Positions 2,795 through 21,633 of a stretch of 21,633 nucleotides of DNA are shown here, one piece after another. Both the position numbers and the translations under genes were made by a program. Source of the DNA: a virus. The DNA lies in the IMG/VR virus record IMGVR_UViG_3300022680_000119, positions 1 through 21,633 of that record; one strand, 5' to 3'. The notes below the pieces were generated by a model, which did no database searches, was not told where the DNA came from, and was given only the letters and a program-made list of their open reading frames with translations. How positions within the stretch are numbered: position 1 is the stretch's first letter; each line of letters begins with the position of its first letter.

Positions 2795-3937
2795 TTACTT
2801 TTTCCGTGCTGCTTTCTTCGCACCTCCTGTTGCTTTCTTTGCTGCTTTCTTTTTCGCAACCGGTTTAATAAGAATATCCCCGAGACCGATTTCTTCAAGA
2901 AGAGTAACGTCTTCCGCGTCAAGACCGTCTTCGGGCTTCGCGCCTTCGAAGTCTTTAAGCTGCGACTGTGCAACATCCTTCGTCCAGAAAACGTAATCTT
3001 CGCGAAGGGCTTCAACGATTTCATCCATTGACATTCCGGATTTAACTTCATCGATTCCCTGCGCGACGCAAAGAGCAAGAACCGCTTCAAATTTCGGATC
3101 AACTTCAGGTTCCTTCTTCGCGGCTTTTTTCTTTCCAGCGGCTTTCTTTTTACCAGCGGCTTTTTTCGCTACCGGTTTTATGATAATATCGCCGCAACCG
3201 ACGCGTTCCAGAAGTTCAATTGCTTCATCGTCGATACCGTCTTCAGGAGAAGCATCTTCGAAATCCGTAAGCTGATCAGCGGTTACATTCTTCGACCAGA
3301 ACGAATATTCCTTGTTAATAATTTCGACAATCTGTTCCAGTGTCATATCGTCGGTAATTCCTTCAATTCCTTCTTCTTCGCAAAGAGCAATCAATGCTTC
3401 GAGATCAGGATCACCGGCATCTGCGTCTGCGTCGGTAGCAGGATCAGCGTCAGCATCCTCATCGTCAGCCTGCGGATTTTCGCTGGTACCGAGAATTTCC
3501 AGGATTCTCAGATTTGTAAAGTCACCTTTACGGATAACCTGAAAACGCGTTTCCGGTTCTTCTTTTTCGATCGCCGCAAGAGTATCGTCAAAGTCTTTCG
3601 TAATAACGAAATCACCCTGACGTTCGGAGGCTTCCCAATCAAAGATTTCCGGCATTTCGTATCCCATTTCAGAAATAAACCGCGTAACGATTGAAACGGC
3701 AACTTCGTGTTCGAGTCCGATAAATTCCGTTGCGACGTTTCCTTTCTGTTCGCCTTCGGTAATATACTCCGAATGCTTGATCTGGGGACGCCCTTTACCT
3801 GAAGGCGCGTACGTATACGCCTGCAGCTTTCCGATATAAGTACCGGCGGGGATATCCGCGCCAAACTGCTTCGCCAGGTCTCTTCCGGTTTCCTGCGCCT
3901 GCTTCGCAGCTTCCAATCTGTCTTTAAAGTTGCCCAT
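2795..3937 (-). CDS. putative ssDNA-binding protein with acidic linker, duplicated C-terminal domain and K/A tails
   Basis: 380 residues. Residues 1-150 read as a compact alpha/beta domain (AGTYIGKLQAYTY near 31-43; RFQVIRKGDF near 131-140) that resembles phage DUF669-like single-strand binding proteins; this is a weak family call made from memory. An acidic, Asp/Ala-rich linker follows (159-178). Then a ~90-residue domain appears twice, 179-275 and 283-369, in a 104-residue offset, sharing FW(S/T)K, Q-L-x-DFE-A-PEDG(I/L)D and GDI(I/L)IKPVAKK. Each copy ends in a lysine/alanine tail, and the protein ends GGAKKAARKK. Position between the Sak4-like ATPase and the polymerase fits a role in covering single strands during replication and annealing. 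Start ATG has AAAGGAG. Cellular role is inference; the repeats are seen directly. Confidence 0.75.
   Translation of the reverse strand: MGNFKDRLEAAKQAQETGRDLAKQFGADIPAGTYIGKLQAYTYAPSGKGRPQIKHSEYITEGEQKGNVATEFIGLEHEVAVSIVTRFISEMGYEMPEIFDWEASERQGDFVITKDFDDTLAAIEKEEPETRFQVIRKGDFTNLRILEILGTSENPQADDEDADADPATDADADAGDPDLEALIALCEEEGIEGITDDMTLEQIVEIINKEYSFWSKNVTADQLTDFEDASPEDGIDDEAIELLERVGCGDIIIKPVAKKAAGKKKAAGKKKAAKKEPEVDPKFEAVLALCVAQGIDEVKSGMSMDEIVEALREDYVFWTKDVAQSQLKDFEGAKPEDGLDAEDVTLLEEIGLGDILIKPVAKKKAAKKATGGAKKAARKK
2831..3403 (-). repeat. tandem intragenic domain duplication
   Basis: Codes residues 179-275 and 283-369 of the ssDNA-binding-like protein. The two copies align without gaps at a 104-residue offset over most of their length, including the terminal GDI-[IL]-IKPVAKK. 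DNA copies have diverged, so the duplication is not recent. Confidence 0.85.
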
Positions 3938-3974: not shown

Positions 3975-4901
3975 CTACTTAGTTTTTTCCTTTACCGTTC
4001 GACGCTTAAACGGCACCGTCACTGTTCGTGAACTATACGTCTTTGTTTGCTTATTAAGATACGCATTCATAATATTCGCATGCGCTTCCTTCGGCGAATT
4101 ACCCATTGGGATCATTTTTATCTGATCGCCATTCGGGGTTAAAAAATTATTCTGTAATCGACAACCGGCAACGACAGTATCGTCACCGCGTATCTGAAGG
4201 AATCTTTCTTCACCAATAGTATGATAATACGCAATAATATCGATAATACCACGGTAGAATTCATCAGTTGATCCGCCGAACATAGGTTCAATTTTTAATT
4301 CTTTCGAACCGGTACGCCGTTGACGTTCTGTCGCTCGTGAATGAGCTGTAACGAAAAAGCCGAGATCAAGTGCTGCAAGACGTGCGTGAACATCTGTAAA
4401 GGCTTTTGTTACTTCTTTCCAGCTGGCTCCGTAATCTTCGACTTTACCAGGATGCTGAATATGATCACGGAGGCAAACCCATTCCAAACAACGGTCGTAT
4501 GCTTTTGAACCGGTATCGATACAGACGGATTTAAACTGAAGTGTTCCATCTACTTTCTGTTGTTCCAATGCGTCGACAAGACCGAGCATATATGCCCATT
4601 CTTTTATAGTCGGTGTCTGAAATATTTCAAGAGCCTTTCCACCTGGTTCGAACATAGCGAAAAGAACCTGAGCGAATTCAGCAATTAAAGACGTTTTACC
4701 GATCTTTGGTTCACCATGAATAAGCCAGGTATATTCTGCAAGGTTCGTTGAAGGCTTTGATTTTTCCGTCGGTAATTCTACTTTAACCGGCGTAATACTT
4801 CCGGAAGCCGCGACACCTGGGGAAGAAACCTTCTTCGCGCCGGAAGACTTCTTTACTGCTCCGCTACCGCCGCCAGGCGGGGCTTTCTTCTTTACTGCCA
4901 T
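3975..4901 (-). CDS. RecA-fold ATPase, Sak4/AAA_24-like phage recombinase
   Basis: 308 residues. A Walker A motif is at 63-70 (GEPKIGKT), followed by a hydrophobic strand ending in Asp, the Walker B (KSVCIDT, about 124-130). TAHSR near residue 197 fits the sensor strand, and the layout matches the phage nucleotide-binding AAA_24 family that includes Sak4 single-strand annealing proteins. Sak4 proteins usually work with an SSB, and the ssDNA-binding-like gene lies immediately downstream. The N-terminal ~50 residues are a low-complexity basic extension starting MAVKKK and rich in K, G, A and S, not part of the ATPase fold; the same MAVKKK start occurs in the gene at 8326-8787. SD AAGGAG. ATPase fold is secure; the annealing role is inferred from family and neighbours. 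Confidence 0.85.
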   Translation of the reverse strand: MAVKKKAPPGGGSGAVKKSSGAKKVSSPGVAASGSITPVKVELPTEKSKPSTNLAEYTWLIHGEPKIGKTSLIAEFAQVLFAMFEPGGKALEIFQTPTIKEWAYMLGLVDALEQQKVDGTLQFKSVCIDTGSKAYDRCLEWVCLRDHIQHPGKVEDYGASWKEVTKAFTDVHARLAALDLGFFVTAHSRATERQRRTGSKELKIEPMFGGSTDEFYRGIIDIIAYYHTIGEERFLQIRGDDTVVAGCRLQNNFLTPNGDQIKMIPMGNSPKEAHANIMNAYLNKQTKTYSSRTVTVPFKRRTVKEKTK

Positions 4902-5862: not shown

Positions 5863-6342
5863 TTATAATACTCCTTTCCGTACTTCTTTAAGCTGACGAA
5901 TAAAAGTCAGTAGGTATGGGGAACGCATTTCGCCGGATAGATAGACGGAAACAGGATTCATAATTTGAACTGCACCGTGGAATTCCTTTTTATACCATCG
6001 AAGTGCTTCTTTTCCAAGAAATACAACTTTTTTCGGCGATAAATCCCGAACGCTTCCTAAAAAACGACTACTGCAGGCGAGAACCTGCGCCGGATGCGGA
6101 GAATTACCGTCCGGATTCCGACAGCGTACGATAGGCAGAATATAATAGCTGGCGATCTCCACCTGCGAGAGCAGTTTCTCGAAGAAATTACCGGTTGGTC
6201 CTGATAAAGCCTGTCCGGATACTTCGTCCGACGCTTCCGGATATTCGATTATAAAAAGAATATCCGGATTACCGGTTCCGCGTCCTTCGATAATCCTTTT
6301 ACGCGTTTTCCATAATTCGCATTTCTGGCAAGGCTTCTTCAT
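5863..6342 (-). CDS. uracil-DNA glycosylase superfamily protein (family 4-like), divergent
   Basis: 159 residues. Four cysteines, C5-x2-C8 ... C74-x15-C90, match the Fe-S ligands of family 4 uracil-DNA glycosylases, and surrounding sequence fits the fold: GxGNPDILFI near 22-31, SGPTGNFFEKLL near 47-58, YYILPIVRCRNP near 66-77, and KKVVFLGKEALRWY near 104-117. However, the active-site motif that normally reads GEAPG is IEYPEAS, and the usual HP motif near the C-terminus reads RSPYLL without His. So the fold is well supported, but glycosylase activity is uncertain. It overlaps the resolvase gene by 4 nt (ATGA). A role in removing uracil or another recombination-linked DNA-binding role are both possible. 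Confidence 0.75.
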   Translation of the reverse strand: MKKPCQKCELWKTRKRIIEGRGTGNPDILFIIEYPEASDEVSGQALSGPTGNFFEKLLSQVEIASYYILPIVRCRNPDGNSPHPAQVLACSSRFLGSVRDLSPKKVVFLGKEALRWYKKEFHGAVQIMNPVSVYLSGEMRSPYLLTFIRQLKEVRKGVL

Positions 6343-6878
6343 AAGATTCCTAACCTTCCGAAACCCATACCAACCGCTTCTTCTTCATGTTCACGATACC
6401 GTGTACAATTAAGACGATAGATTCTTTCTCCAACAACTTCCTTCGGTAAATTTCCTTTCCAGGCAGACGCTTCAATAATCTCGCAATCTACATCGTTAAA
6501 CCGACAAACGCTGACGTAACTTCCTACAAGATAGGATAACTTTACAACCGCGCCCGAACTTGCTGCGACCGAACCTTTTAACGATCCAGGGCGAAAGTCG
6601 GTTCCTTCAATAATGACTTTTTTCACTTTCCAGGTATCACGGGCGATTTGAATAAGAGCATTAAATTCGTCCGACATCTTATTGATCCGCTGGACAATAT
6701 CGGAAACTTTATCACGCTTCAATGAAAACCGTCCTGTCGTCGGAAAAGCGGTTCCGTTCCAGAAAGCCCAACCAGTTCCGTTAAATCCTGGATCAACCAT
6801 CATTATAAGATTTAAACTTTTGCAAGTGAATTCCGTTTTTTCACTTACAAATAAATCTAATTGCTTACCTGTAGCCAT
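6339..6878 (-). CDS. RuvC-like Holliday junction resolvase (RNase H fold)
   Basis: 179 residues. Acidic motifs of the RuvC fold are in order: D29 (VDPGFNGTGWAFW), E91 (KKVIIEG), then a C-terminal HEEEAVGMG (164-172) corresponding to the H-x2-DA-x-G-x-G motif, with Glu in place of Asp. It would cut branched DNA made during recombination-dependent replication. The N-terminus carries QLDLF at residues 6-10, which matches the bacterial sliding-clamp binding consensus. The start ATG overlaps the helicase gene by 14 nt, with GGAGG 12 nt upstream; the later MM pair at residues 26-27 would delete the QLDLF and leave little before D29. Confidence 0.85.
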   Translation of the reverse strand: MATGKQLDLFVSEKTEFTCKSLNLIMMVDPGFNGTGWAFWNGTAFPTTGRFSLKRDKVSDIVQRINKMSDEFNALIQIARDTWKVKKVIIEGTDFRPGSLKGSVAASSGAVVKLSYLVGSYVSVCRFNDVDCEIIEASAWKGNLPKEVVGERIYRLNCTRYREHEEEAVGMGFGRLGIL

Positions 6879-8325
6879 GTCTTTCTTTTGCCTCCTTTAC
6901 AATAATTTGCATACGTTCATTACGCTGGCGTTTTTCTCTTAATCCTTTCAATAATCCGACGTCAACGGATTTCGTTGTTGTAAGATAAATTACAAGTAAA
7001 CTTCCTTTTTTACCAACCTTAATAAAACGAGAACGCGATTGCTGAAAGGTTTCAAGACCAGGCGGTAATGAATAATAGATCATAGTAGACGCGGCGGAAT
7101 AATCCGAACCAAACTTTTGCGTTCCAGGCTGTATTACGCAATACTGATAATAGCCTTGTTGAAATTTACGTCTTCGAAGGTTCCGTTGATTCTTCGATAC
7201 TTCGCCGTGAATAATAGTGGTACGTCCAGGAAGCCACCGCAGCCTATCCTGAATTACCTTTATTTCGTCAACGTGATGAGCCCAGATAATTACCTGCTGA
7301 CCTTTTAATTCAGATTGAAGTAATGTAACAAGAAGTTCAAGTTTTCCGTTCCATACAACTTTACCATCAACGATTCCTCCGGCAAGCCTTCGAAGAAAGG
7401 CAAATTGCGCTACCGACCAAACCGTTTTATATTCGATTCCGTCGATTTCCATAAGGAAATTTGTTTCCATATCATTATACAGCTTCGCAGCAGCTGGGGA
7501 AAACTTCGCGATCTTTACTTCTTCAATTATTTCGCCTTCAAGGTCAACCTGATCGCGCGTTAAGAAGAAGCAATGTTTTGCTAACTTTTTCGAAAGCCTT
7601 CTGCGCGCTTCTAATTTAATGAACCATTGTTTGTTACCTGGATCAAGTCCGCGCGTAAAATTATAGTGACGCCATCGATAAAACGATGGTTCATTCAGGA
7701 TAGCGGGGTTCACCCAGTTGAGTTGCTGATGATATTCGAGTTCTGTTTCCGGAGCTGGCGTTCCGGTAAGAAGAACGCGGACGGCTTGAGGATGTGAAAA
7801 CGAATTAAACATTGCTTTCGTTCGTGCGCTATCCGGATTCTTTAAAAATGTAGATTCATCCGCAACGATTGCTTGCCACGGAAGAGGAGAAAACTTTTCA
7901 TGTATTTCTGCGCGTACGGCATCGTGATTAAGTAGACACCATATCGGCACTTCTTCTTCGATATACTGCTCATACGCTTCGTCGATTAATCGTTCACGTT
8001 TTTTCTTCGAACAATCGAACCGATAAATATTCTGGTATCCGTCAAGGAATAAATCTTCGTGCCATCCGTCAAATGCGGAAAACGGCGCCAATATCAAATT
8101 TAATCTTCTATTACGGTACTTCAAGACGCGAATCGTGACCAGAGTCTTTCCGAGACGCATCTCAACGAAAAATACTGGGTGCGGTTCGTTAATACCGTAC
8201 TTGAACATATTCTTCTGATAAAGGCGTAAAATTCGCCTCCGGAAGTTCCTACAAAAAGAAGAAACCGACGTTTCCGCCGGTTCCTTTTCCGTAAGCGATA
8301 TAACTGATGTTCGGCGATAGGCCAT
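6865..8325 (-). CDS. SNF2-type superfamily 2 DNA helicase/translocase
   Basis: 486 residues. Motif I is at 55-61 (EMRLGKT, the SNF2 DEMGLGKT with changes), motif II at 156-159 (DEST, followed by FLKN), motif III at 187-190 (TGTP), motif V around 400-408 (QPGTQKFGSD), and motif VI around 429-440 (Q-x-R-x-R-x2-K-x-GK). This is the short SNF2-like helicase common in phage replication blocks, thought to remodel forks or recombination intermediates. The ATG directly follows the TAA of the upstream K/A-tailed gene (TAAATG), without a clear SD, so expression may rely on translational coupling. Motif VI has KK where most relatives have GQ. Confidence 0.93.
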   Translation of the reverse strand: MAYRRTSVISLTEKEPAETSVSSFCRNFRRRILRLYQKNMFKYGINEPHPVFFVEMRLGKTLVTIRVLKYRNRRLNLILAPFSAFDGWHEDLFLDGYQNIYRFDCSKKKRERLIDEAYEQYIEEEVPIWCLLNHDAVRAEIHEKFSPLPWQAIVADESTFLKNPDSARTKAMFNSFSHPQAVRVLLTGTPAPETELEYHQQLNWVNPAILNEPSFYRWRHYNFTRGLDPGNKQWFIKLEARRRLSKKLAKHCFFLTRDQVDLEGEIIEEVKIAKFSPAAAKLYNDMETNFLMEIDGIEYKTVWSVAQFAFLRRLAGGIVDGKVVWNGKLELLVTLLQSELKGQQVIIWAHHVDEIKVIQDRLRWLPGRTTIIHGEVSKNQRNLRRRKFQQGYYQYCVIQPGTQKFGSDYSAASTMIYYSLPPGLETFQQSRSRFIKVGKKGSLLVIYLTTTKSVDVGLLKGLREKRQRNERMQIIVKEAKERHGYR

Positions 8326-8787
8326 TTACTTTTTACGCGCTGCTTTCTTCGCACCCTTTTTCGCCGGAACCTTTTTTACTGCAGGTTTCTTTGCTGCAGG
8401 TTTCTTTGCGGCTGCCTTCTTCGCCGCAGGCTTTTTGTCAGTTACCGCTTCTTCCTTCTTCGCTACTTTCTTTTTACTACCGGAACCGTGAACGTATTCC
8501 TGAAGTTTTCCGTCTACCATAACGAACTTCTTCATTGTCTTTTCGAACTTCCCGCGCTTTCCTTCGTTCATTTCGCGACGGACTACTCCGACACGGCGGA
8601 CAGGAAATTCACGATCGGTAAATTTATCATTTACCATTTCAGCGATCTTTTCGTCATCATACTTCTGAAGCGTAATCAGTTCGGCGCAATATTCTTTACG
8701 CTGACGACCGGCACCTTTTTCTTTCGCTTTCGGAGAAGTGATGGTGGTTTCTGTTGAGGAATCGGATGATTTTTTCTTGACAGCCAT
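8326..8787 (-). CDS. putative DNA-binding protein with histone H1-like lysine/alanine tail
   Basis: 153 residues. Residues 31-75 form a compact segment with helix-turn-helix-like spacing (DDEKIAEMVNDKF, then RRVGVVRREMNEG), suggesting a small sequence-reading domain. Residues 104-153 are repeats of AAKKPAAKK type, like histone H1 or bacterial AlgP/Hc1 tails that bind DNA without sequence preference. The protein begins MAVKKK, like the Sak4-like ATPase, and ends GAKKAARKK, like the ssDNA-binding-like protein. SD AAAGGAG. Could be a regulator, a nucleoid-type protein or a replication accessory; the HTH reading is tentative, the tail is certain. Confidence 0.75.
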   Translation of the reverse strand: MAVKKKSSDSSTETTITSPKAKEKGAGRQRKEYCAELITLQKYDDEKIAEMVNDKFTDREFPVRRVGVVRREMNEGKRGKFEKTMKKFVMVDGKLQEYVHGSGSKKKVAKKEEAVTDKKPAAKKAAAKKPAAKKPAVKKVPAKKGAKKAARKK

Positions 8788-10467: not shown

Positions 10468-10484
10468 ATAGTGCCAGGCACTAT
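10468..10484. repeat. 17-bp palindrome spanning the lipase stop codon
   Basis: ATAGTGCC-A-GGCACTAT has perfect 8-bp arms around one base. The TAG stop of the lipase lies within the arm. With a one-base centre it is poorly suited to an RNA hairpin and better suited to a dimeric protein site; function unknown. Confidence 0.7.
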
Positions 10485-11155
10485 ATTCGGTTAATACATT
10501 TTGAATAGACTTTCTGCGTATGATTTATTATTCCGCGAATAAACGCAAGAAATGGAAAAGCAGAAGTATGAAGGACCAAGTGCGGATCAACGTGAGTGTA
10601 TCCAAGTGCACGAGGCGGCACCTTCGTTACGATATCGTATTTTGTTCGAACATTAAGAAATTCGATTTCGTCAATATCTTCGATAGCAGCAGCATACCGT
10701 TTTCCACCCTGCCGTGGCGCCGCGAACGGTACGCACTTCGAACTGATATGCAATTCAACCCAGAGGCGCCAGGCTGCGATAGTACAAAGCGCGCCGCCTC
10801 GAGAATGACCGGTAAATTCTACCGTGTAACCTTCGACAACCCATTTCCGGATAACTGCCCAGAGTTTATCACGTACTGCAATAAATCCTTCCCAGAATCC
10901 TTCGTGAACGCGCGCTTCGTGCTTCTTAAATTCAACACGATCGATCGCGTCAAAGTTTTCTTTCCAGGCTGGGAGTCCTCGTGTTCCTCGAAATGAAACG
11001 ATAACACGTTTACTTTCGTGATCAACTTCGATTAAAACCAAATCATACTTATTATGAATCGATACGAAATCATCCCTCACCTGGGAATAGTCCGTCACGC
11101 CGTACGCTTTGTCAGCGTGTTTCCAAAGACGTTTTACATCTGCGATAGTTATCAT
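10481..11155 (-). CDS. class 3 lipase/esterase (alpha/beta hydrolase)
   Basis: 224 residues. The nucleophile elbow is G116-H-S118-R-G120-G, the class 3 lipase GxSxG. SFRGTRG (54-60) is the oxyanion-side strand typical of the family, D174 (YDIVTKVP) is the likely acid and H212 (NHTQKVY) the likely catalytic His, with H188 an alternative. No signal peptide is evident. It is the last gene of the structural operon, directly after a tail fibre (ATG follows the fibre's TAA, SD GAGGAA). Possible roles are a virion-borne enzyme that deacylates surface polysaccharide or lipid during adsorption, or a lysis-time esterase acting on envelope lipid. Enzyme class is secure; substrate and timing are not known. 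Confidence 0.9.
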   Translation of the reverse strand: MITIADVKRLWKHADKAYGVTDYSQVRDDFVSIHNKYDLVLIEVDHESKRVIVSFRGTRGLPAWKENFDAIDRVEFKKHEARVHEGFWEGFIAVRDKLWAVIRKWVVEGYTVEFTGHSRGGALCTIAAWRLWVELHISSKCVPFAAPRQGGKRYAAAIEDIDEIEFLNVRTKYDIVTKVPPRALGYTHVDPHLVLHTSAFPFLAFIRGIINHTQKVYSKCINRI

Positions 11156-11156
11156 A

Positions 11157-12128
11157 TTAGTTCCTCACTTCATAACGAAAATGCATTTTGCCAAAGCTGA
11201 AGCCAGTACCAGCTGTGAATCCTTCATGAAACCGTAAATAAAAAGTTAATCCTGGAATACGGCTCATAGATAAAGTAACCATTGTACTTAATGATCCGGC
11301 GATGGTTGGACGCTGACACCAGGAAATTGCGGCAGCACGTTCATACAATGTAATATCTGTTAAAGGCGCATCAAATATATCCGCCGGTACTGGCGAGTAT
11401 ATTAACTGACCAAATGTCGCGGTTAATTCACCTTCAACATATTCCATTATTAAATCGATAATGTTATCGTGTCGACGCCAACGCCAAGTCCACGGAGCGT
11501 CAGGAATAAAGGTTCCGGTTGAATCAGTTCCTACAGTCGTTGATCCTTCTCGGTATTCGGTCATAATCTTTCCGGAATTAACGCGGAAACCAGAAGAACC
11601 TCCTGAAGCATGTATTATCCCTCCTGACGTTACTTCCGGAGCGCTTAAATCGATAGCTACACCTGCTGACATAAGGATGTAATCCCCGCCAGTAATATCG
11701 ACTTCGTACGCTCCTTCAAGATAAAGATAATTACCGCTATCGATCCAGATGTCTCCGCCTTCCATGGTAAAGTTACCTGAACACGTAATATCGATCTGAT
11801 CACCGACGTTTATGTCAAGATCATCTGTTACATCGATATTCATATCAGTAGAAATAGCATCAGCTGAACCGATACTCCTGACAGTAAGATTCCTGTTGTC
11901 ATTACCAGGTGTATTATCGAATAAATCAGCATTGAAGTATTCAGTCCAATCGTTTACAAGACGATGAAGGAAATTAAACCATTGCCGTGGCGGGAATTCT
12001 TTGAAAGCCCACCCTTCAAGTTTTTTACTCGGATCACTTAAATCAGGATCAGCAACATTATTCTGTCCTGATGTAGGATCGATAACATCATTCACTGCCC
12101 ATTGTGGATACTTATCAGGTATCGGCAT
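11157..12128 (-). CDS. tail fibre protein
   Basis: 323 residues. The N-terminus (PQWAVND ... GWAFKEFPPRQWFNFL, about 8-54) matches the start of many phage fibres, where the PP-x-x-W-x-N segment attaches to the baseplate or the preceding fibre. Residues ~80-190 show short alternating strands with D/N-I-x-I and G/S turns, as in trimeric beta-helical shafts. Residues ~195-323 are a beta-rich tip that would contact the receptor. Followed by the lipase and preceded by the large adhesin, it is probably the distal receptor-binding fibre. No chaperone gene is seen next to it. SD GGAG. Confidence 0.75.
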   Translation of the reverse strand: MPIPDKYPQWAVNDVIDPTSGQNNVADPDLSDPSKKLEGWAFKEFPPRQWFNFLHRLVNDWTEYFNADLFDNTPGNDNRNLTVRSIGSADAISTDMNIDVTDDLDINVGDQIDITCSGNFTMEGGDIWIDSGNYLYLEGAYEVDITGGDYILMSAGVAIDLSAPEVTSGGIIHASGGSSGFRVNSGKIMTEYREGSTTVGTDSTGTFIPDAPWTWRWRRHDNIIDLIMEYVEGELTATFGQLIYSPVPADIFDAPLTDITLYERAAAISWCQRPTIAGSLSTMVTLSMSRIPGLTFYLRFHEGFTAGTGFSFGKMHFRYEVRN

Positions 12129-12137
12129 AATCTCTCC

Positions 12138-14942
12138 TTATAAAATAAGTTCAAATAATTGACCGCCAACATGCTGTCCAGCTTCTAAATAGTTAAGTTC
12201 ATCGAATCCTTTGAAACCTGCATCGATCGGTAAGCCGTCCCAATCGAATGTAAAATATGTAGCGTCAGGATCAAGATAAAATAGCCCGCGTAATTTTACG
12301 CCTGCTGCCATCAATTGTTCAATAGCTTCTTTTAAATTAAAATTCTGAACAACGTTTGTTCCATTCGTAAAGATATATAATCCTGCTGGATACGCTTCCT
12401 GTAATCGGACGCGCGTTGCATTCGTAAAATCTTTAACGAAGGCGATTAAAACTTCAGCTTCACCGGAAGAACGGTTTATATAAATTCTGAATTTAATAGC
12501 AACGCGGTAATCGTCATCATTTCTTCCGTTCCTTTCTTCACCGACTATCGCGCCGATACCATCCAGTTGCGTACCATTTGCAAAGTCCAGGAAGCGCAGC
12601 TGGAGAAGGTCTGATTCGATGTATTCAACTTCCTGTACTTGATTTAAGAAAACAGAAAGCATTTTAATTAAGTTATTCGGATTTGGATCACTATTTTCAG
12701 GACGCTTTTTCCGGAACTGCGTAATCAGTAAATCAATACCGCGTTCGACATGATTTGAAATAATATTCGAAATAGAAACATCCATTATATGAAATCCGAA
12801 CGTTGCGAGCTTTCCTGAAAATAAAGTCGTAATCATTCCGCCAACGGCTATATCTATCCATTTATTTGGATTTATAGGAAACCAGTTTGGGCATGCTATC
12901 GTTCCATATTCGTACGCGCCTTCACTTGGAATAGAAGCGAAAGCGAGACCTGTCAAATCTACTGCAGGAACGTCGCTTCTTCTTATTCCTGCATGATGCG
13001 CTGGACTCGTATCGTCAATTGCTAAACGATTATTTGCATCTGTATAGAGGAATAATGGATCTGTTTCAAGTTCAGTTGCATCCGGTGCGATCCATACAGT
13101 GTCTTCAGTATAATTATAACCAGCCTGAGAAATATTATGGTCATGCAGAAATTCAGCTAAATTCATACTTGTAAGCGTAATAGTGAAAGTATTTCCTTTT
13201 CCGATATTATTATAAAAGTAAAGTTTTCCAAGAGCGCAATTTAGAATTTCAATATTAAGCTCTACAGCTGTTGTTTGGTTATCAAAAGAATTATTTACGA
13301 TTATAACTTCATTCGAAATAGTAAGCGTATTCTCTCTTATGTACATTGAATAGTCTTTAAAATTTTCAAAGCTATTCCCTATTACACGGATATCCAGTCC
13401 GGTATACCAAAATTCAATAGCCTGATACCAATAACCCATACCGTCAAATTTACAATTTACGACTTCATACGGATCGTAAATACAAGTGTTCCAATCGGCA
13501 TTCGGATTATCTGTAAAAAATGAACAATTGTAAACACCGACCGTTTCAAAAGAACTTGTATCCATATCGATTATAGTTGACTGGGAACTTTCCCCTATAA
13601 TCGATGCACCGTTTCCTTCGAACCAATCATATTCATCCGTCGGTTCGGTAATTTTACCGTATACGTATACAGTCCATAACGCCTCCAATTCATCTATCGA
13701 AGCATTCAAATATAGTCCGTCGAATAGTTCATGAAAATTGGTTGCTGCCTTGGCTCTTGTATCATACGGAAAAGTATTACTTCCAGTAGCTTCAACGTGA
13801 AATTCAAGTGGAACTATATCCCAGATAGCATAAAGAGTAATTACTCCAGAATCTGAAAACGTTAAAAGATCGCTCGGACTGTAATCAGTTCCGGTTCCAT
13901 TCGGTAAAGTATTCCATCTGTTAAAGCTATGACCGTACCAACTTATTGATCCAGCACCGAGAATAGTTGCAGAATCTTCAGCACTGTATAAAGTCGGATC
14001 AACTGGGGCGGAAGAACCTGGCGCGCCGTTATCGTTATATGCGACCTGGTACTGCTCTTTCCATACGTCGTTACGGTCTGTACTTCCAAACCTCCCACCT
14101 ACAGTATACAAAGTATTATTAAGTAATACAGCTTGAGATTGCGTATTCTGATAAGAAGTTACTTGAGTAATTCCTGAAAAGTTTATTCCGTCTGTTGATA
14201 GTGCAACATCGACGTACGCACCAACGTTTGTTCTTCCGCCGATTAATACAAGTTGAGTTGCGGTATCATTTACAACCGCAGTCATATCGTATCTTTGGAA
14301 ACCCATTGAACCTTCATTTACCCAGCTTGTTCCATTATTTATAGAATGCCAGATAGTATTATGTGGTCCAATATTACTATCGTTTCCTCCGTAAATCCAA
14401 AGTTCACCGAGGAAAGAAATCATTGAATGCTGCCGGATATTCGCGCCAAAATCCGATGATTCCAAATCCCAGTCGGTTCCGTTTGAAGAACTCCATACAT
14501 CTGAATAAAACGTTCCTACTCCGCCGCCTGCTGGATTATACCCGCCGCTGATATAAAGTTTATTATTGTGAACGCAATATCCCATTTGATGTCGTGAAGC
14601 CCAGTCCGCGATTCCGGTTTCTTCTATCCAGGTAATTCCGTCTGCAGAACTCCAACAATCATTATAGTACGTACCAAGATCATTGGAACCGCCAAATACA
14701 TAAATCCTTCCGTTAAAGAATAAACAGCCGTGCGCGCCTCTTGATCCCCATCCAGGTGCTGCGGTCAGTAAATCCCATGTTATTCCGTCAGCAGACCTCC
14801 ATACTTCACTATTCGCTACTCCAGAAGCATACCCGCCGGTAAGATACATATATCCATTACCAACGCACATTCTATGGTAATACCGAGCAGAAAATGCTGC
14901 TGGATTTACAAGTTCTGCCCAACGATCAGCTCTGAAATCCAT
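12138..14942 (-). CDS. multidomain tail adhesin: kelch propeller, InlB B-repeat, beta-helix, C-terminal baseplate domain
   Basis: 934 residues. (1) 1-297: six kelch-like blades with GG pairs at 36, 84, 133, 185, 235 and 282, most followed by a DGITW-type turn; a complete beta-propeller. (2) 298-374: an InlB B/Listeria-Bacteroides repeat with its G-x2-F-x2-WNT and final TLYAIW. (3) about 380-680: right-handed beta-helix with repeated N-(C/S)-x-F turns, ending in DPLF ... LAIDDTSPAHHAG as in choice-of-anchor Q proteins. (4) about 735-905: LLITQFRKK, R-x-LDFANG-x-QLDGIG-x-IVG, DDDYR, which matches DUF2612/gpI-like baseplate proteins usually found as a separate gene after baseplate J. No stand-alone version exists in this window, so the adhesin is probably anchored by its C-terminus. 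SD GGAGG. Domains 2-4 called from pattern memory. Confidence 0.85.
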   Translation of the reverse strand: MDFRADRWAELVNPAAFSARYYHRMCVGNGYMYLTGGYASGVANSEVWRSADGITWDLLTAAPGWGSRGAHGCLFFNGRIYVFGGSNDLGTYYNDCWSSADGITWIEETGIADWASRHQMGYCVHNNKLYISGGYNPAGGGVGTFYSDVWSSSNGTDWDLESSDFGANIRQHSMISFLGELWIYGGNDSNIGPHNTIWHSINNGTSWVNEGSMGFQRYDMTAVVNDTATQLVLIGGRTNVGAYVDVALSTDGINFSGITQVTSYQNTQSQAVLLNNTLYTVGGRFGSTDRNDVWKEQYQVAYNDNGAPGSSAPVDPTLYSAEDSATILGAGSISWYGHSFNRWNTLPNGTGTDYSPSDLLTFSDSGVITLYAIWDIVPLEFHVEATGSNTFPYDTRAKAATNFHELFDGLYLNASIDELEALWTVYVYGKITEPTDEYDWFEGNGASIIGESSQSTIIDMDTSSFETVGVYNCSFFTDNPNADWNTCIYDPYEVVNCKFDGMGYWYQAIEFWYTGLDIRVIGNSFENFKDYSMYIRENTLTISNEVIIVNNSFDNQTTAVELNIEILNCALGKLYFYNNIGKGNTFTITLTSMNLAEFLHDHNISQAGYNYTEDTVWIAPDATELETDPLFLYTDANNRLAIDDTSPAHHAGIRRSDVPAVDLTGLAFASIPSEGAYEYGTIACPNWFPINPNKWIDIAVGGMITTLFSGKLATFGFHIMDVSISNIISNHVERGIDLLITQFRKKRPENSDPNPNNLIKMLSVFLNQVQEVEYIESDLLQLRFLDFANGTQLDGIGAIVGEERNGRNDDDYRVAIKFRIYINRSSGEAEVLIAFVKDFTNATRVRLQEAYPAGLYIFTNGTNVVQNFNLKEAIEQLMAAGVKLRGLFYLDPDATYFTFDWDGLPIDAGFKGFDELNYLEAGQHVGGQLFELIL

Positions 14943-14957: not shown

Positions 14958-15920
14958 CTAACTTAATCGAGTTCTACCGGACTGCGCAACATGGACGATA
15001 GTCAACGGTGTAAGGTTATCCCTTTTATAAAAAGTTATATCGCAAGGTCCCGGCGTATCAAGCGCATATCGTCCATTGACGAATGAAGCGACAACTTCAA
15101 AGATATAGTCGTAAGTTACGCCGTCAACAGTAGATGAATTCGGGTAGAAATTCGATATTAAGCCTGTTGAAGGTAACTTCGCGATAATAGCACCGACCGC
15201 TGTCAGTATAGACTGGCTCGTGGCTTCGAGAGCAGCCGAAGCGGCCAGTGAAGCTATATCGGTAAGGATAGAATCAGCTTTTCCGTCTATCACGACGAGA
15301 GCAGCATTTGCGGTATCGACTTTTCCGTCAACAGTTCCGACGTCAGAAATAATCTGCGTTGTATCGGTCTGAACGCCGTCAACTTTACCATCGACCGTTC
15401 CAACGTCGGAAATTATTTGCGTTGTATCAGTTTGAATACTATCAACTTTACCATCGATAACACCGACTTCAGTATCAACAGTATCGATCTTTCCGTCAAT
15501 AGTAGCAAGTTGCGCATCGATCGTGTCCGGATGCGTGCCTGTTACAAGGTCCATTGCGTCACGAGTTTCTGCTGCGGACAGAGTAGGATTCGCGCCGATA
15601 TTCGGATGCATAGCTGAAGCATTTCCATACGTTTCAATAATGATCGTCTGTTCTTCCCATTCGTCTCCTGCCGCATCCTTAAAACGAATCATAATTTGTT
15701 TACAGGTAAGTTCGGCAGCGGATAAACTGATTTTAACTTTCACGCCGCCGCTGGGTGTAACCGTCGGAAGCGTCGTGATATTCGTAAACGCCGCATCGTC
15801 TAAACTGACCTGAACGTCTCCTGCTGCAAGAGTAGGATTGGCCTGCGCATTCCGAGAACCATTCGTGATTAAAATTGTCGAAAGTTCTGCGGCTGTAGCG
15901 TACTTCCTTAATTCGCTCAT
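14958..15920 (-). CDS. tail fibre/connector protein with trimeric coiled-coil repeats
   Basis: 320 residues. Residues 1-100 form a beta-sandwich-like head. A DGK motif at 142, 156, 177, 198 and 212 (spacing 14, 21, 21, 14, all multiples of seven) marks a continuous heptad coiled coil, with the 21-residue unit DGKVD-x2-QTDTTQIISDVG nearly exact twice. The C-terminal ~70 residues are a small beta domain. This is the build of a phage baseplate upper protein or fibre shaft that trimerises. It lies between the repeat-domain protein and the adhesin. SD GGAG. Confidence 0.7.
   Translation of the reverse strand: MSELRKYATAAELSTILITNGSRNAQANPTLAAGDVQVSLDDAAFTNITTLPTVTPSGGVKVKISLSAAELTCKQIMIRFKDAAGDEWEEQTIIIETYGNASAMHPNIGANPTLSAAETRDAMDLVTGTHPDTIDAQLATIDGKIDTVDTEVGVIDGKVDSIQTDTTQIISDVGTVDGKVDGVQTDTTQIISDVGTVDGKVDTANAALVVIDGKADSILTDIASLAASAALEATSQSILTAVGAIIAKLPSTGLISNFYPNSSTVDGVTYDYIFEVVASFVNGRYALDTPGPCDITFYKRDNLTPLTIVHVAQSGRTRLS
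15267..15500 (-). repeat. coiled-coil coding repeats (7-residue phased)
   Basis: Encodes DGK-containing units of 14 and 21 residues. The two near-exact 21-residue units differ mostly at third codon positions in the DNA, so the protein sequence is being held constant. Confidence 0.8.
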
Positions 15921-15935
15921 TTATATCTCCTTTTC

Positions 15936-16994
15936 TTAATTAAGCCCTACATTTATTCCACGTTGTATTCCACGTTGAAAAGTCTTGAATATATCGCTAT
16001 CCGGCGGAACACCTAACCATTCGACGACAAGCGATAAAACCCAGGAATCATTCCAGTTCTGTGCTCGAGTCATACGTACAAGAGTAGAAGATATCTTTTC
16101 AAATGAAAACGCAGCTTCTGCCGCGTGATCATCGCCATTATTCGCCGTACCCCATGTACAATGTATCGATCCACCAAGAAGCAATGTTCGATCAAGATTT
16201 ACAGCAGTAAGTACATGATCATTTGAATAGTTTCCGGAATTAATCGGAAATTCCCCTCTTTGAACATTTACATCATCGGTAGAAATAATATATACCGTCG
16301 CCCTTACTACATTCGTTGACGGATCGAACCTGTAAAATTGAAGGTTCGTTGTTGAAGTAAGAAACCAGGACGGCATATTATGCGTACCAGTAGGAGCAAG
16401 AGATGAGCCCCATGAACCAACGTAAAACGTTTTATCAAGATTTACAGCCGAGATAGTTGCGTTCGTATTATCGCTATTTACGATATGATCATGAACTACC
16501 TGAACAGAAGCATTATCGTATTCGATAACTTGCCATTGTACTTCGACGGTTCCACCGGCGCCATACGCTTTTAATTCAAGATTTGTACTACTCGAAATAT
16601 ATGCCTGCATCGCGTCTTCGGTACTGAACTGAGTACCAAGATTCAGCCAGGTTATAATTGGAAACGATTTCGAAAGGTCTACAGAACTAATTGAAATATT
16701 TTCCGTTGTAGAATTCATATACCGAACACCACGTTGAACAGTTACACCGGAAGTAAATTCAATTACCTGCCAATGAATGGTAACAGCAACGCCGCCAGAA
16801 TAGCGTTTAATTCTAACGGTTGTTGAATTCTCAAGTTGGCAGTTTATCAAGTAATACTGAGGGTCTGCTGAATCAATTCGATAACTAATTTTTACAAATG
16901 CTTTCGTCGTGTCTACAGCAGATATAGTTATAGCTTGACTATTATCTGTCCAACCTGATAAAACTCCTTCTTGTATAGACTTGAAAACGGCCAT
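15936..16994 (-). CDS. structural protein of four tandem ~79-residue beta domains
   Basis: 352 residues, family not recognised. Four units begin with an I-S-A-V-(D/N)-L-x-K-x-F motif at 22, 100, 179 and 260 and end with a strand such as IHWQVIEF (73-80), VQWQVIEY (152-159), TVYIISTD (233-240) and VVEWLGV (323-329). VQRG precedes two of the later units. Strand-turn patterns imply Ig-like or jelly-roll domains in a row. Position in the fibre cluster suggests a decorating or receptor-contacting tail protein. ATG has AGGTGAT; its first base overlaps the upstream stop. Confidence 0.7.
   Translation of the reverse strand: MAVFKSIQEGVLSGWTDNSQAITISAVDTTKAFVKISYRIDSADPQYYLINCQLENSTTVRIKRYSGGVAVTIHWQVIEFTSGVTVQRGVRYMNSTTENISISSVDLSKSFPIITWLNLGTQFSTEDAMQAYISSSTNLELKAYGAGGTVEVQWQVIEYDNASVQVVHDHIVNSDNTNATISAVNLDKTFYVGSWGSSLAPTGTHNMPSWFLTSTTNLQFYRFDPSTNVVRATVYIISTDDVNVQRGEFPINSGNYSNDHVLTAVNLDRTLLLGGSIHCTWGTANNGDDHAAEAAFSFEKISSTLVRMTRAQNWNDSWVLSLVVEWLGVPPDSDIFKTFQRGIQRGINVGLN
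16011..16931 (-). repeat. four tandem ~79-residue coding repeats
   Basis: Units start at residues 22, 100, 179 and 260 (spacing 78, 79, 81). Similarity is clear at the protein level, strongest in the first strand and the Q-V-I-E closing strand, and lost at the DNA level. Confidence 0.75.
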
Positions 16995-17582: not shown

Positions 17583-19106
17583 TTATGGTGTTACATCATT
17601 AAGAACAATGCGCGTTGTATTGTTTTCGAATACCGCTACAGCTTGAGCAGCGATAATAACATTGGCCTGCACCCAGCTGGGGGAAGGATTGTCCGGCGCG
17701 ACATCTTCCGCCAGGTAAATAGTCGCATCTGTAATACCTGGTACGGAATAAGCTGCGGAAAAGAAACGTTGCCTGATAACATCTTCGCCGATATCGTAAG
17801 CAATTCCAAGCGCGTAAATATTATCACGGATTGTATCTTCTCCGTCTGACGGGAAGGCCTCTTCCGCATCGGTTTTATCATAATCGATACGGACGTATAA
17901 ATAAACAGTTGTTGGTCTCGAAAAACGGATTTCCTGCGGATCGCCATTTGAATCGGTAATAATAACTGTTGTATTTCCATACGTTTGAATCCCTGCGGCT
18001 TTTACTTCCCAAATCTTTTCTGCAATTTCAGTATCGTCTCCGCCTTCGACGACAACTTCAATAGAATGCGGAGGACGACCTGTTGGCGAAGAACCAGGAG
18101 GAATCCATTCGTCAGTACGGTTTTCGATAACGTTTACTTGTACTACATTATCGACTTCCTGACCGACTCTTGCTTTTATCGCTCCGATAGTAGCAGCACC
18201 GGCAATCTGAAGACTTTGAATCCTGCGTGTCCGTAATTCGACATCTGTTTCAGGATCACGACCGGAAACGCCGTCCTCGAAATTCGTAACCGAAGAAAAA
18301 CCGGAAATCGGCGTTTCGATAGTATCAATTGAACCGATAGGAACCGGGAAACTACCGGTATCAACGGCGCGGTAAAGTGCTGGAGAATATAGCTCCGTAT
18401 ATTCCAATCCATCTACCGTTGGAGGTGTTAATAAGATTGAATAGTTCCGGTCTACGGTTAAAGGAATATCGCCGGAAATCCCAATTTCATTTTTAATCGT
18501 AATAGTAAAGAATTCATCTCCTGAATTATATACTGATTCGACTTTACTATTTACGGTTGCGGTTAAATTAATATTAGTTGAAAGATTTTCAGCGATTTCC
18601 GCAAGAGTATTTCCCGACGCAATAAAGTTTACATCGATTCCGTCGATAGTAACCGTATACGTCCCGTCATCGTCTTTCGCGACCGTTACAACGGTTCTAT
18701 GCTGCGTATCGCGAGTAATAACTACTATTCCAGCCTGTTCAAAAATCTTTCCTTGATCAGATTGGCTTACTTTCGTTAAATCCGGAATAATCGTTCCCTG
18801 CGTACCAAGGCACTGGCAAATAACTTCTGACTCTGTTGAAGCAAGGCGAATAATTCCATTTATCTGAGCGACACCGTCAAGCGAAAATCCTGCCGCTGAT
18901 GCAGGATAAAATGAAAAGTAAATATTTTCCGCTTGTTCCCATATTTCAGCAAGATGCCGAGACATAACGCCGATAATCTGACCGAATACCGAATCAGGAG
19001 AAACATTAATTTCTCCAAATTCTTCGCGTAAATCGGTTTCAATTTCGCTTTTAATGTCTTCAAGACGTTTTAAAACGAAGCCGTCATCTGTTAATCCGAA
19101 TGCCAT
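17583..19106 (-). CDS. baseplate J-like wedge protein (Mu gp47/T4 gp6 type)
   Basis: 507 residues. The N-terminus (GFVLKRLEDIKSEIETDLREEFG ... PDSVFGQIIGVMSRHLAEIWE, broken here) and the later SGRDPETDVELRTRR segment near 278-292 are characteristic of the baseplate J family, which builds the wedges that hold the contractile baseplate together. The preceding gene is gp25-like, the normal partner. SD GGAGG before ATG; the stop of the preceding gene abuts it. This gene is a main reason for assigning a contractile tail. Confidence 0.95.
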   Translation of the reverse strand: MAFGLTDDGFVLKRLEDIKSEIETDLREEFGEINVSPDSVFGQIIGVMSRHLAEIWEQAENIYFSFYPASAAGFSLDGVAQINGIIRLASTESEVICQCLGTQGTIIPDLTKVSQSDQGKIFEQAGIVVITRDTQHRTVVTVAKDDDGTYTVTIDGIDVNFIASGNTLAEIAENLSTNINLTATVNSKVESVYNSGDEFFTITIKNEIGISGDIPLTVDRNYSILLTPPTVDGLEYTELYSPALYRAVDTGSFPVPIGSIDTIETPISGFSSVTNFEDGVSGRDPETDVELRTRRIQSLQIAGAATIGAIKARVGQEVDNVVQVNVIENRTDEWIPPGSSPTGRPPHSIEVVVEGGDDTEIAEKIWEVKAAGIQTYGNTTVIITDSNGDPQEIRFSRPTTVYLYVRIDYDKTDAEEAFPSDGEDTIRDNIYALGIAYDIGEDVIRQRFFSAAYSVPGITDATIYLAEDVAPDNPSPSWVQANVIIAAQAVAVFENNTTRIVLNDVTP

Positions 19107-19462
19107 TAAAGTACCTCCGTGATTTCAAGTAATCCAAAAGAAGTATCAACCGTAAAGTTGACGGTTAATTTCCGTAATACCGTATCGAACGATTGAGTAT
19201 ACTCCAGAAGATTAACGACATCCGGTGTATCTAAAATCGTTGCTTTCAACGCTGACGCAACCGTTCCAAGATTCGGATTTTTAATCAGGATTAATTCGTA
19301 ATACTTTACGCCGTATGTTGTATCAAGAAACCATTCAGCATAAAAGAACCAAAGCCTGATCCGGAGCTGTTGCCGTACTCTATCAATTTCCGAAACGAAG
19401 GAAAGGTCATAATTTGTAACTTCAAGATCATGCCGCGTAATATCCAATCGTAAATCTTTCAT
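19106..19462 (-). CDS. gp25-like baseplate wedge protein (Mu gp46/GPW family)
   Basis: 118 residues. The stretch RQQLRIRLWFFYAEWFLDTT with Y-G-x-x-Y-Y-E (about 30-56) fits the gp25/GPW family, where these small proteins interlock with J. Overlaps the previous gene by 4 nt (ATGA) and abuts J. Typical length for the Mu gp46 type is similar. Confidence 0.85.
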   Translation of the reverse strand: MKDLRLDITRHDLEVTNYDLSFVSEIDRVRQQLRIRLWFFYAEWFLDTTYGVKYYELILIKNPNLGTVASALKATILDTPDVVNLLEYTQSFDTVLRKLTVNFTVDTSFGLLEITEVL

Positions 19463-20456: not shown

Positions 20457-21313
20457 TTCGGTTCCACTACTTTCATTGTTGACGTCCAGTCAGTACCTCG
20501 AATCTGACCTTTGTGCTCAACTTCTTCGATTCTGAATTGCGTCGCTGTAGATATTTCTCTACTTGACAAAGTAATTAATCCGCCTGGTTCTGCCTTCGGC
20601 TGGAGAAGCGTTCGAACTTTCCATCCTGGTTTCGCTTTATCCTTCTTTGATTTCTTTCCGATATTTTCAAGGCGTTCAGGCGATCCGATTAAACCTGTAT
20701 CTTTATTTACAACTATTGAACGAGTATAGTCCACCGATCCGTCTGGTTGGATTTTTAATTCACCATTTTGGAATGACCATTCAAGCCCAACTGTTTTCGT
20801 TAAAGTATCAAGTGCGTCTTTCGCTTGACCAACAAAAGAATATCCGTTCGCGAAAGTTTTATCAGTAAACTGAAGTGTCGTCAGATCGACCTTTTGAGGA
20901 ACTTGAAGTTTTACCGCAATATCCGAAAGAATCTGACGAACTGAAAATCCTTCTTTATAGGACAATGAAAGACGCGATTCGCGAAGAACGGTTTCACCAT
21001 CGTTCGCTTCAATCCTTGTTACGATATCCGGACGGTTATGCGCGTGATTAATTAATGAAATATCCCCAACGAAAATAACTTCAAGCCCATTCGCATTTCG
21101 GTATCCGGCGGATACTGTAATCTTCTGATCAAGATCGCGAATTTTATCTCTTGACGCTTTCGATAAATTATAAATATCGATCGTGGCTTTATTACTTTCA
21201 GGAGTAGGTGTTTTCAGAATACTAAACGCAACCTCAGAATTTGAAACGGTAAGCGTTGAAGCTCCTACCGTGCCAAAAACAACTTGCGCTATTCTATCAA
21301 ACTGTTGTCTCAA
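20453..21313 (-). CDS. baseplate hub protein (gp27/gpD-like)
   Basis: 286 residues from TTG at 21313, which has GGAGG with ideal 6-nt spacing; an earlier in-frame TTG at 21337 lacks an SD and would deepen the overlap with the ATP-grasp gene (41 nt instead of 17). The N-terminus has the hub pattern (AFSILKTP ... ATIDIYNLSKASRDKIRDLD; SAGYRN ... VIFVGDI) and the middle GLEWSFQNGELKI is typical of T4 gp27/P2 gpD-like hub folds. It carries the spike encoded next. Hub call is by family pattern and context. Confidence 0.85.
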   Translation of the reverse strand: MRQQFDRIAQVVFGTVGASTLTVSNSEVAFSILKTPTPESNKATIDIYNLSKASRDKIRDLDQKITVSAGYRNANGLEVIFVGDISLINHAHNRPDIVTRIEANDGETVLRESRLSLSYKEGFSVRQILSDIAVKLQVPQKVDLTTLQFTDKTFANGYSFVGQAKDALDTLTKTVGLEWSFQNGELKIQPDGSVDYTRSIVVNKDTGLIGSPERLENIGKKSKKDKAKPGWKVRTLLQPKAEPGGLITLSSREISTATQFRIEEVEHKGQIRGTDWTSTMKVVEPK

Positions 21314-21633
21314 CTTCGTCCTCCGGAATATATACAAGCGTTAAAGCTCTTTCATTATGAAAATCATTTCTTCCGATAGCTTCTTTACTATCGGTTGTAT
21401 CGACTACATATAAATGACCAGGAGGCAAGCCCCTGTCAGGATAATCCGCAATCAACTCATGTATCTGAATACCCGTAGTCTCCATTAATGCTTTGTACCC
21501 TGGGTAACAGTTCGCCTCCAAGACTATTGGAGAACCGTCCTCTCTTGGAAGAATATCAAGACCCGTAATCATCAGCCCAGCCGCCTCTGCGACTTTAATC
21601 GCAAGTACATCATACGTGTCTTCATCAAACGGT
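21297..21633 (-). CDS. RimK-like ATP-grasp ligase, C-terminal part; runs off the window
   Basis: The last 111 codons are visible and the frame is open to the window edge. Residues 12-60 of the visible part match the RimK/ATP-grasp core: AEAAGL-x-ITGLDIL, then G-x-PIVLEANCYPG and TTGIQIHELI. Asp (LDIL), Glu and Asn (LEAN) are the usual Mg-ATP ligands. These enzymes join an amino group to a carboxylate using ATP, e.g. adding glutamate to a protein tail. A C-terminal extension of ~40 residues follows. Its stop overlaps the hub gene by 17 nt, so it is co-expressed with the baseplate. Target unknown; a virion or host protein is possible. Confidence 0.85.
   Translation of the reverse strand, partial: PFDEDTYDVLAIKVAEAAGLMITGLDILPREDGSPIVLEANCYPGYKALMETTGIQIHELIADYPDRGLPPGHLYVVDTTDSKEAIGRNDFHNERALTLVYIPEDEVETTV

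Follow-up and report, generated by a model that had tools for sequence, protein, structure and literature searches.

A phage baseplate wedge subunit that probably carries a host-binding arm at its N-terminus

In a viral DNA fragment, we found a single gene whose 934-amino-acid (aa) product ends in a baseplate wedge domain and begins with about 690 residues of adhesin-type sequence. We consider it likely that this product is the third wedge subunit (T4 gp7/BW3 class) of a contractile tail, anchored by its C-terminus, with an N-terminal adhesin arm that binds the host. Phage tail fibers are usually separate proteins held by their N-terminus. An earlier note on this DNA had described the protein as a fiber with a reversed anchor; C-terminal anchoring was supported on analysis, but the protein is more aptly seen as a wedge subunit that itself bears an N-terminal arm.

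A contractile-tail baseplate module in a viral fragment

The DNA analyzed (the window) comprises positions 1 to 21,633 of IMG/VR record IMGVR_UViG_3300022680_000119, a 21.6-kb viral record that is probably a fragment. Its right-hand part holds a contractile-tail baseplate module with all genes on one strand, in the order hub, spike, spike-tip-like protein, gp25, J, three genes for proteins of 192, 352, and 320 aa, the 934-aa gene, a fiber-type gene, and a class 3 lipase. The genes on which the argument rests are as follows.

19106-19462, minus strand: gp25-like wedge subunit (sheath initiator); PHROG 120, E = 2e-27
17583-19106, minus strand: J/gp6-like baseplate wedge subunit, the expected partner; PHROG 6, E = 2.5e-48
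14958-15920, minus strand: p320, the 320-aa gene; similar at its C-terminus to the gene that immediately precedes the free-standing wedge gene of relative L048
12138-14942, minus strand: whole gene of the adhesin-wedge fusion, 934 aa; a single open reading frame (ORF) with the Shine-Dalgarno (SD) sequence AGGAGG before its ATG
11157-12128, minus strand: conventional tail-fiber-type protein; N-terminal match to relative L043 and a weak match to PHROG 4465 (tail fiber)

Several other genes of the window were noted. The 352-aa protein (15936-16994), encoded between J and the adhesin-wedge gene, shows by eye several repeats of about 85 residues and matches no family. The class 3 lipase (10481-11155; PF01764, 5.9e-20) directly follows the fiber gene, has a relative at the same place in L083, and is possibly a lysis or envelope enzyme. 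An open-ended ORF before the hub gene (21297-21632) looks by eye like the end of an ATP-grasp/RimK-like enzyme. The replication part of the window encodes a uracil-DNA-glycosylase-like protein and an SNF2-type helicase, at 5863-6342 and 6865-8325. Three genes (2795-3937, 3975-4901, and 8326-8787) have lysine/alanine-rich tails or heads of the KKAAKK type, and in one of them a stretch of about 100 residues is duplicated internally.

The C-terminal domain corresponds to a wedge protein

Three features were assigned in the C-terminal part of the fusion.

12141-12785, minus strand: baseplate wedge protein (T4 gp7/XM1 gp17/DUF2612 class), residues 720-934; from profiles, PDB sequence matches, AlphaFold, and Foldseek
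12597-12752, minus strand: helix-turn-helix, residues 731-782; helices 731-743 and 756-782 in the model
12765-12872, minus strand: junction, residues 691-726; matched, from about residue 697 onward, by the N-terminal extension seen in free-standing wedge proteins

Profile searches matched this domain to PHROGs 22472 (E = 5.6e-32) and 6277 (1.8e-29), to the baseplate PHROGs 4056 and 1160, and, when the domain was searched alone, to DUF2612 (27.5 bits versus a cutoff of 23.5). PDB sequence matches included phi92 gp146 (8e-10) and "Wedge 1" proteins. The DUF2612/gpI-like domain that the earlier note had placed at residues 735-905 is thus real, the profiles relating that region to the class, and it is larger than claimed, running from about residue 695 to the stop at 934.

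Structure prediction pointed the same way. The core of the wedge domain was modeled by AlphaFold with pLDDT >90, and Foldseek matched it to the wedge chains of PhiTE, Bas63, phi812, pyocin R2, XM1, diffocin, Pam3, and phiCD508, with E values down to 2.5e-8, and more weakly to Mu. A helix-turn-helix followed by a small alpha/beta unit was present by both methods. By homology with XM1 gp17 (PMC10457771), residues 731-782 would be expected to join a core bundle with two J subunits.

Where does the wedge part begin? Residues 697-911 align to residues 11-219 of L048 (blastp E, 1.4e-26), and we place the junction near 690-697 because the short N-terminal extension of L048 aligns from residue 697 on. 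The free-standing L012 protein (199 aa) has its counterpart in residues 726-932: the alignment spans nearly all of it and takes in the conserved C-terminal end. Sequence and model together support the view that residues ~695-934 contain a complete protein of the gp7/gpI/DUF2612 wedge class. Among the window's ORFs, only the 934-aa gene gives a clear wedge-protein score; that of J is marginal, as would be expected from the sharing of the core-bundle domain described for XM1 (PMC10457771). As the earlier note had stated, there is no free-standing wedge copy among the ORFs of the 21,633-nucleotide (nt) window, the record being a fragment.

The N-terminal arm combines adhesin-type domains

Ahead of the wedge domain, three further segments were delimited.

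14046-14942, minus strand: six-bladed kelch propeller, residues 1-299; Pfam kelch models at E ~1e-19 on the region, six aligned repeats
13827-14051, minus strand: InlB B-repeat (Listeria-Bacteroides repeat), residues 298-372; PF09479 above cutoff
12873-13805, minus strand: probable right-handed beta-helix, residues ~380-690; sequence pattern by eye

Kelch_1 was matched at E = 3.7e-15 in the whole-protein profile search and at 2.6e-19 with residues 1-297 alone, for which the kelch superdomain model gave 1.3e-19. All six repeats align, with GG in each; the sixth is without its outer strand and the N-terminus has a spare one, so that the end strands appear complementary, as in a closed kelch propeller. 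Kelch propellers are often protein binding. PF09479 scored 28.3 bits (E = 2e-6; cutoff, 27) when residues 296-382 were searched alone. These results upheld the kelch and InlB parts of the architecture proposed in the earlier note. The beta-helix did not gain the same backing: residues ~380-690 gave no profile match and no PDB sequence match for such a fold, and the only structural sign was regularly spaced strands at residues 509-590 in a low-confidence AlphaFold model. The right-handed beta-helix, read by eye from the sequence, was not confirmed and is no more than probable. The full-chain AlphaFold prediction had a mean pLDDT of 45, with no usable model of the N-terminal 690 residues because relatives are lacking.

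Searches with the whole 934-aa protein found no close relative among the viral contigs and none covering 80% of it among 50,697 phage records, and the fusion region had no DNA match among known phages. Among phages, relatives of the kelch part were confined to Pseudomonas phages of ~300 kb; in the two entries inspected, they are stand-alone proteins of ~310 aa. With no homologue found for the fusion as a whole, it rests on one sequence and two analogues of different makeup, described below.

The fusion occupies the slot of the wedge gene

In L048, a p320-like gene, a free-standing wedge gene, and a fiber gene follow one another; the window has p320, the adhesin-wedge gene, and a fiber gene. 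From this agreement, we conclude that the fusion sits in the wedge-gene slot. Residues 263-318 of p320 are 43% identical to the 464-aa ORF of L048 (E, 3e-11), and the p320 match is marginal in L042 and L043 (E ~0.005). The fiber-type gene lies directly downstream of the wedge gene both in the window and in relatives; its N-terminal 70 residues are conserved, the N-terminus being 57% identical to that of L043.

A wedge gene adjoining J is usual but not strictly defining. The wedge gene directly follows J in L051 and L045, among other relatives; genes intervene in L020 and L083, yet the wedge protein is free-standing there. Three genes separate J from the fusion gene. In all 13 annotated phages inspected, the domain was at or near the N-terminus of its protein, and the gene either adjoined J on its downstream side or was separated from it by one small gene. 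Genome contigs yielded only five distant loci, of prophage type, and a scan with the wedge domain alone returned no true relative.

Long sequences ahead of the wedge core are rare

How unusual is the layout? We placed 141 wedge homologues in ORFs after removal of identical domains and three J proteins. More than 200 residues preceded the domain in three of them: the window protein (728 residues), L015 (601), and L088 (223). One other had 106 residues, seven had 42-64, and the rest had <40; all of these values are maxima, since each ORF was read from its most upstream start. The core-bundle helices are accordingly near the N-terminus in 138 of the 141 and begin at residue 731 in the window protein, which is a variation of layout with the domain itself unchanged. 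Short N-terminal extensions of 30-64 residues are found in several relatives, and L019, L023, L197, L086, and L021 have long C-terminal extensions instead.

The other two long cases are the following.

IMG/VR contig 3300021467_000048, L088:4311-5522: 404-aa protein, LamG and then the wedge domain from about residue 228
IMG/VR contig 3300037851_000037, L015:11571-14678: 1,035-aa protein, encoded directly after J

L088, whose gene also directly follows J, resembles the window protein in having an adhesin-type domain at its N-terminus (LamG, PF13385, 2.7e-18), but the fold is unrelated and the protein much shorter; the contig ends inside the gene, which is 3' incomplete. In L015, residues 10-34 correspond to model positions 3-27 and residues 629-747 to positions 28-144, so that a 594-residue block lies inside the core-bundle helices, between positions 27 and 28; the N-terminal piece scores 7 bits, with its position exact. 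By eye, this insert contains two ConA/LamG-like folds; it has no Pfam match. Both L015 and the window protein carry a large module ahead of most of the core, inserted within the helices in L015 and fused in front of them in the window.

The arrangement described in the earlier note is therefore not unique, since L088 and L015 have different folds of sugar-binding type, placed ahead of the core in the former and within it in the latter. The wedge-domain tree requires three changes to account for the three N-terminal cases, of which well-supported branches force only one. It thus falls short of proving independent origins, for which the unrelated added domains and the different sites are the main argument.

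A model for a wedge subunit with an adhesin arm

C-terminal anchoring follows from two points: residues 695-934 represent a whole wedge protein, a domain that usually opens a short protein encoded next to J, and the window has no free-standing copy. We propose, by homology, that the last 215-240 residues assemble with two J subunits to build the core bundle and trifurcation, with one fusion chain per wedge and six per virion. The adhesin arm would leave the wedge from its N-terminus, which is probably exposed, as relatives tolerate N-terminal extensions. The kelch, InlB-repeat, and beta-helix segments would then be located outside the wedge and attach to the host surface, with a glycan as the likeliest target, and the force of binding would pass straight into the contraction-triggering wedge, no fiber-wedge joint being present. 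The C-terminal end conserved in relatives would be retained; this conservation and the fiber gene that comes next suggest that the ordinary fiber has been kept. Because that conventional gene (11157-12128) still follows, the arm is probably an extra adhesin. We infer host binding from the domain types and from two precedents, Vp4 Gp119 and K8 GP075.

Known wedge subunits frame this model. XM1 gp17, T4 gp7, pyocin R2 PA0619, and diffocin Tri1 share with the window protein the fold, the helix-turn-helix, and a neighborhood of hub, spike, gp25, and J, but they start with the core-bundle helices, whereas the window protein has ~690 adhesin-type residues first. In XM1, the equivalent subunit, gp17, is present once per wedge and uses its N-terminal helix-turn-helix to join two gp16 copies; separate spikes dock on its residues 80-106 and 201-242, that is, on a loop and the C-terminal part (PMC10457771). 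In E217, the fiber docks on a loop of gp45 (PMC10329688), and the Milano study states that receptor-binding proteins bind BW3 in previously studied baseplates (PMC10811340). That solved baseplates hold their receptor-binding proteins at the loop or C-terminal part rather than at the N-terminus (PMC10457771, PMC10329688) is a point against an N-terminal arm.

Wedge proteins that bind the host are already known. Gp119 of Bacillus phage Vp4, a BW3 protein with two carbohydrate-binding modules, decorates host cells (PMC11406892). It resembles the window protein, known from sequence, in having modules built into a wedge protein, and its binding has been shown; the order is reversed, with the wedge domain N-terminal in Gp119 and modules of other folds after it, versus kelch, InlB, and probable beta-helix first in the window. 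A variant of GP075, a DUF2612 protein of Pseudomonas phage K8, binds host core oligosaccharide, which shows that a wedge protein of the same class as the window domain can act as a receptor-binding protein (PMC9887876). Unlike the window protein, GP075 has 243 residues and no adhesin domain, and its binding arose by a point change. In the Dit proteins of phages of Gram-positive bacteria, carbohydrate-binding modules are inserted in a baseplate protein. There, too, a structural baseplate protein has gained binding modules, but Dit is a different protein, of siphophage tails, with the modules as loop insertions. Our literature search found no report of an N-terminal adhesin on a gp7/BW3/DUF2612-class subunit; the new part is the adhesin-first layout.

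Could the N-terminal domains instead be purely structural, serving as a spacer, a clamp on neighboring baseplate proteins, or a dock for fibers, with no host binding? Carrying fibers is the known job of the wedge subunit (PMC10811340, PMC10329688), and protein binding is common for kelch propellers. We nevertheless consider this unlikely, as the combination of kelch, InlB repeat, and beta-helix is typical of surface adhesins, L088 has a LamG fold at the equivalent place, and Vp4 Gp119 with its modules decorates host cells while a module-free homologue does not (PMC11406892).

The adhesin and wedge parts form one reading frame

The reading frame is uninterrupted from 12138 to 14942, and third-position GC content (GC3) is even across the junction (0.30 and 0.32 for the adhesin and wedge parts, respectively). 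We regard it as improbable that the two parts are separate genes joined by a sequencing or assembly error or by a recent nonfunctional read-through. The fusion is seen on a single metagenomic contig, and one changed stop codon would fuse a pair of the type found in L042, L043, and L044, where the wedge gene begins only 3 nt past the stop of the preceding gene. Against this stand the open frame with its even GC3 and the layout of the same kind in L088 and L015. Moreover, no internal start of the 934-aa ORF, Met703 and Met720 included, has an SD at 4-11 nt before it, whereas the start of the free-standing wedge gene is preceded by an SD-like AGGAGCG in L042 and L043 (the signal is weaker in L044 and L083 and unclear in L048 and L020).

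There is likewise little chance that the fusion is real but yields a free wedge protein by processing or an internal start, leaving most of the adhesin off the baseplate: ATG codons do lie where the wedge part starts (residues 703 and 720), and a clear SD is missing from some other genes of this phage too, but neither ATG is preceded by an SD and no protease or cleavage signal was seen.

Implications for host recognition by contractile phages

Our preferred reading, a wedge subunit with an N-terminal adhesin arm, bears on how receptor-binding proteins are sought. Host-range work usually looks for trimeric fibers with N-terminal baseplate docking; if we are correct, an N-terminal adhesin on a wedge subunit would escape such searches under the label "baseplate protein." The L015 protein suggests that a large insertion may be accommodated even within the core-bundle helices. 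We are evenly divided on the broader proposal that contractile phages have repeatedly turned the wedge subunit into a receptor-binding protein through unrelated folds placed before or inside the core-bundle helices, giving six single-chain adhesins held by their C-termini and covalently linked to the trigger of contraction. If the model holds for the window protein, one chain would both sense the host and form the part that starts contraction, and passage of the signal would be directly testable.
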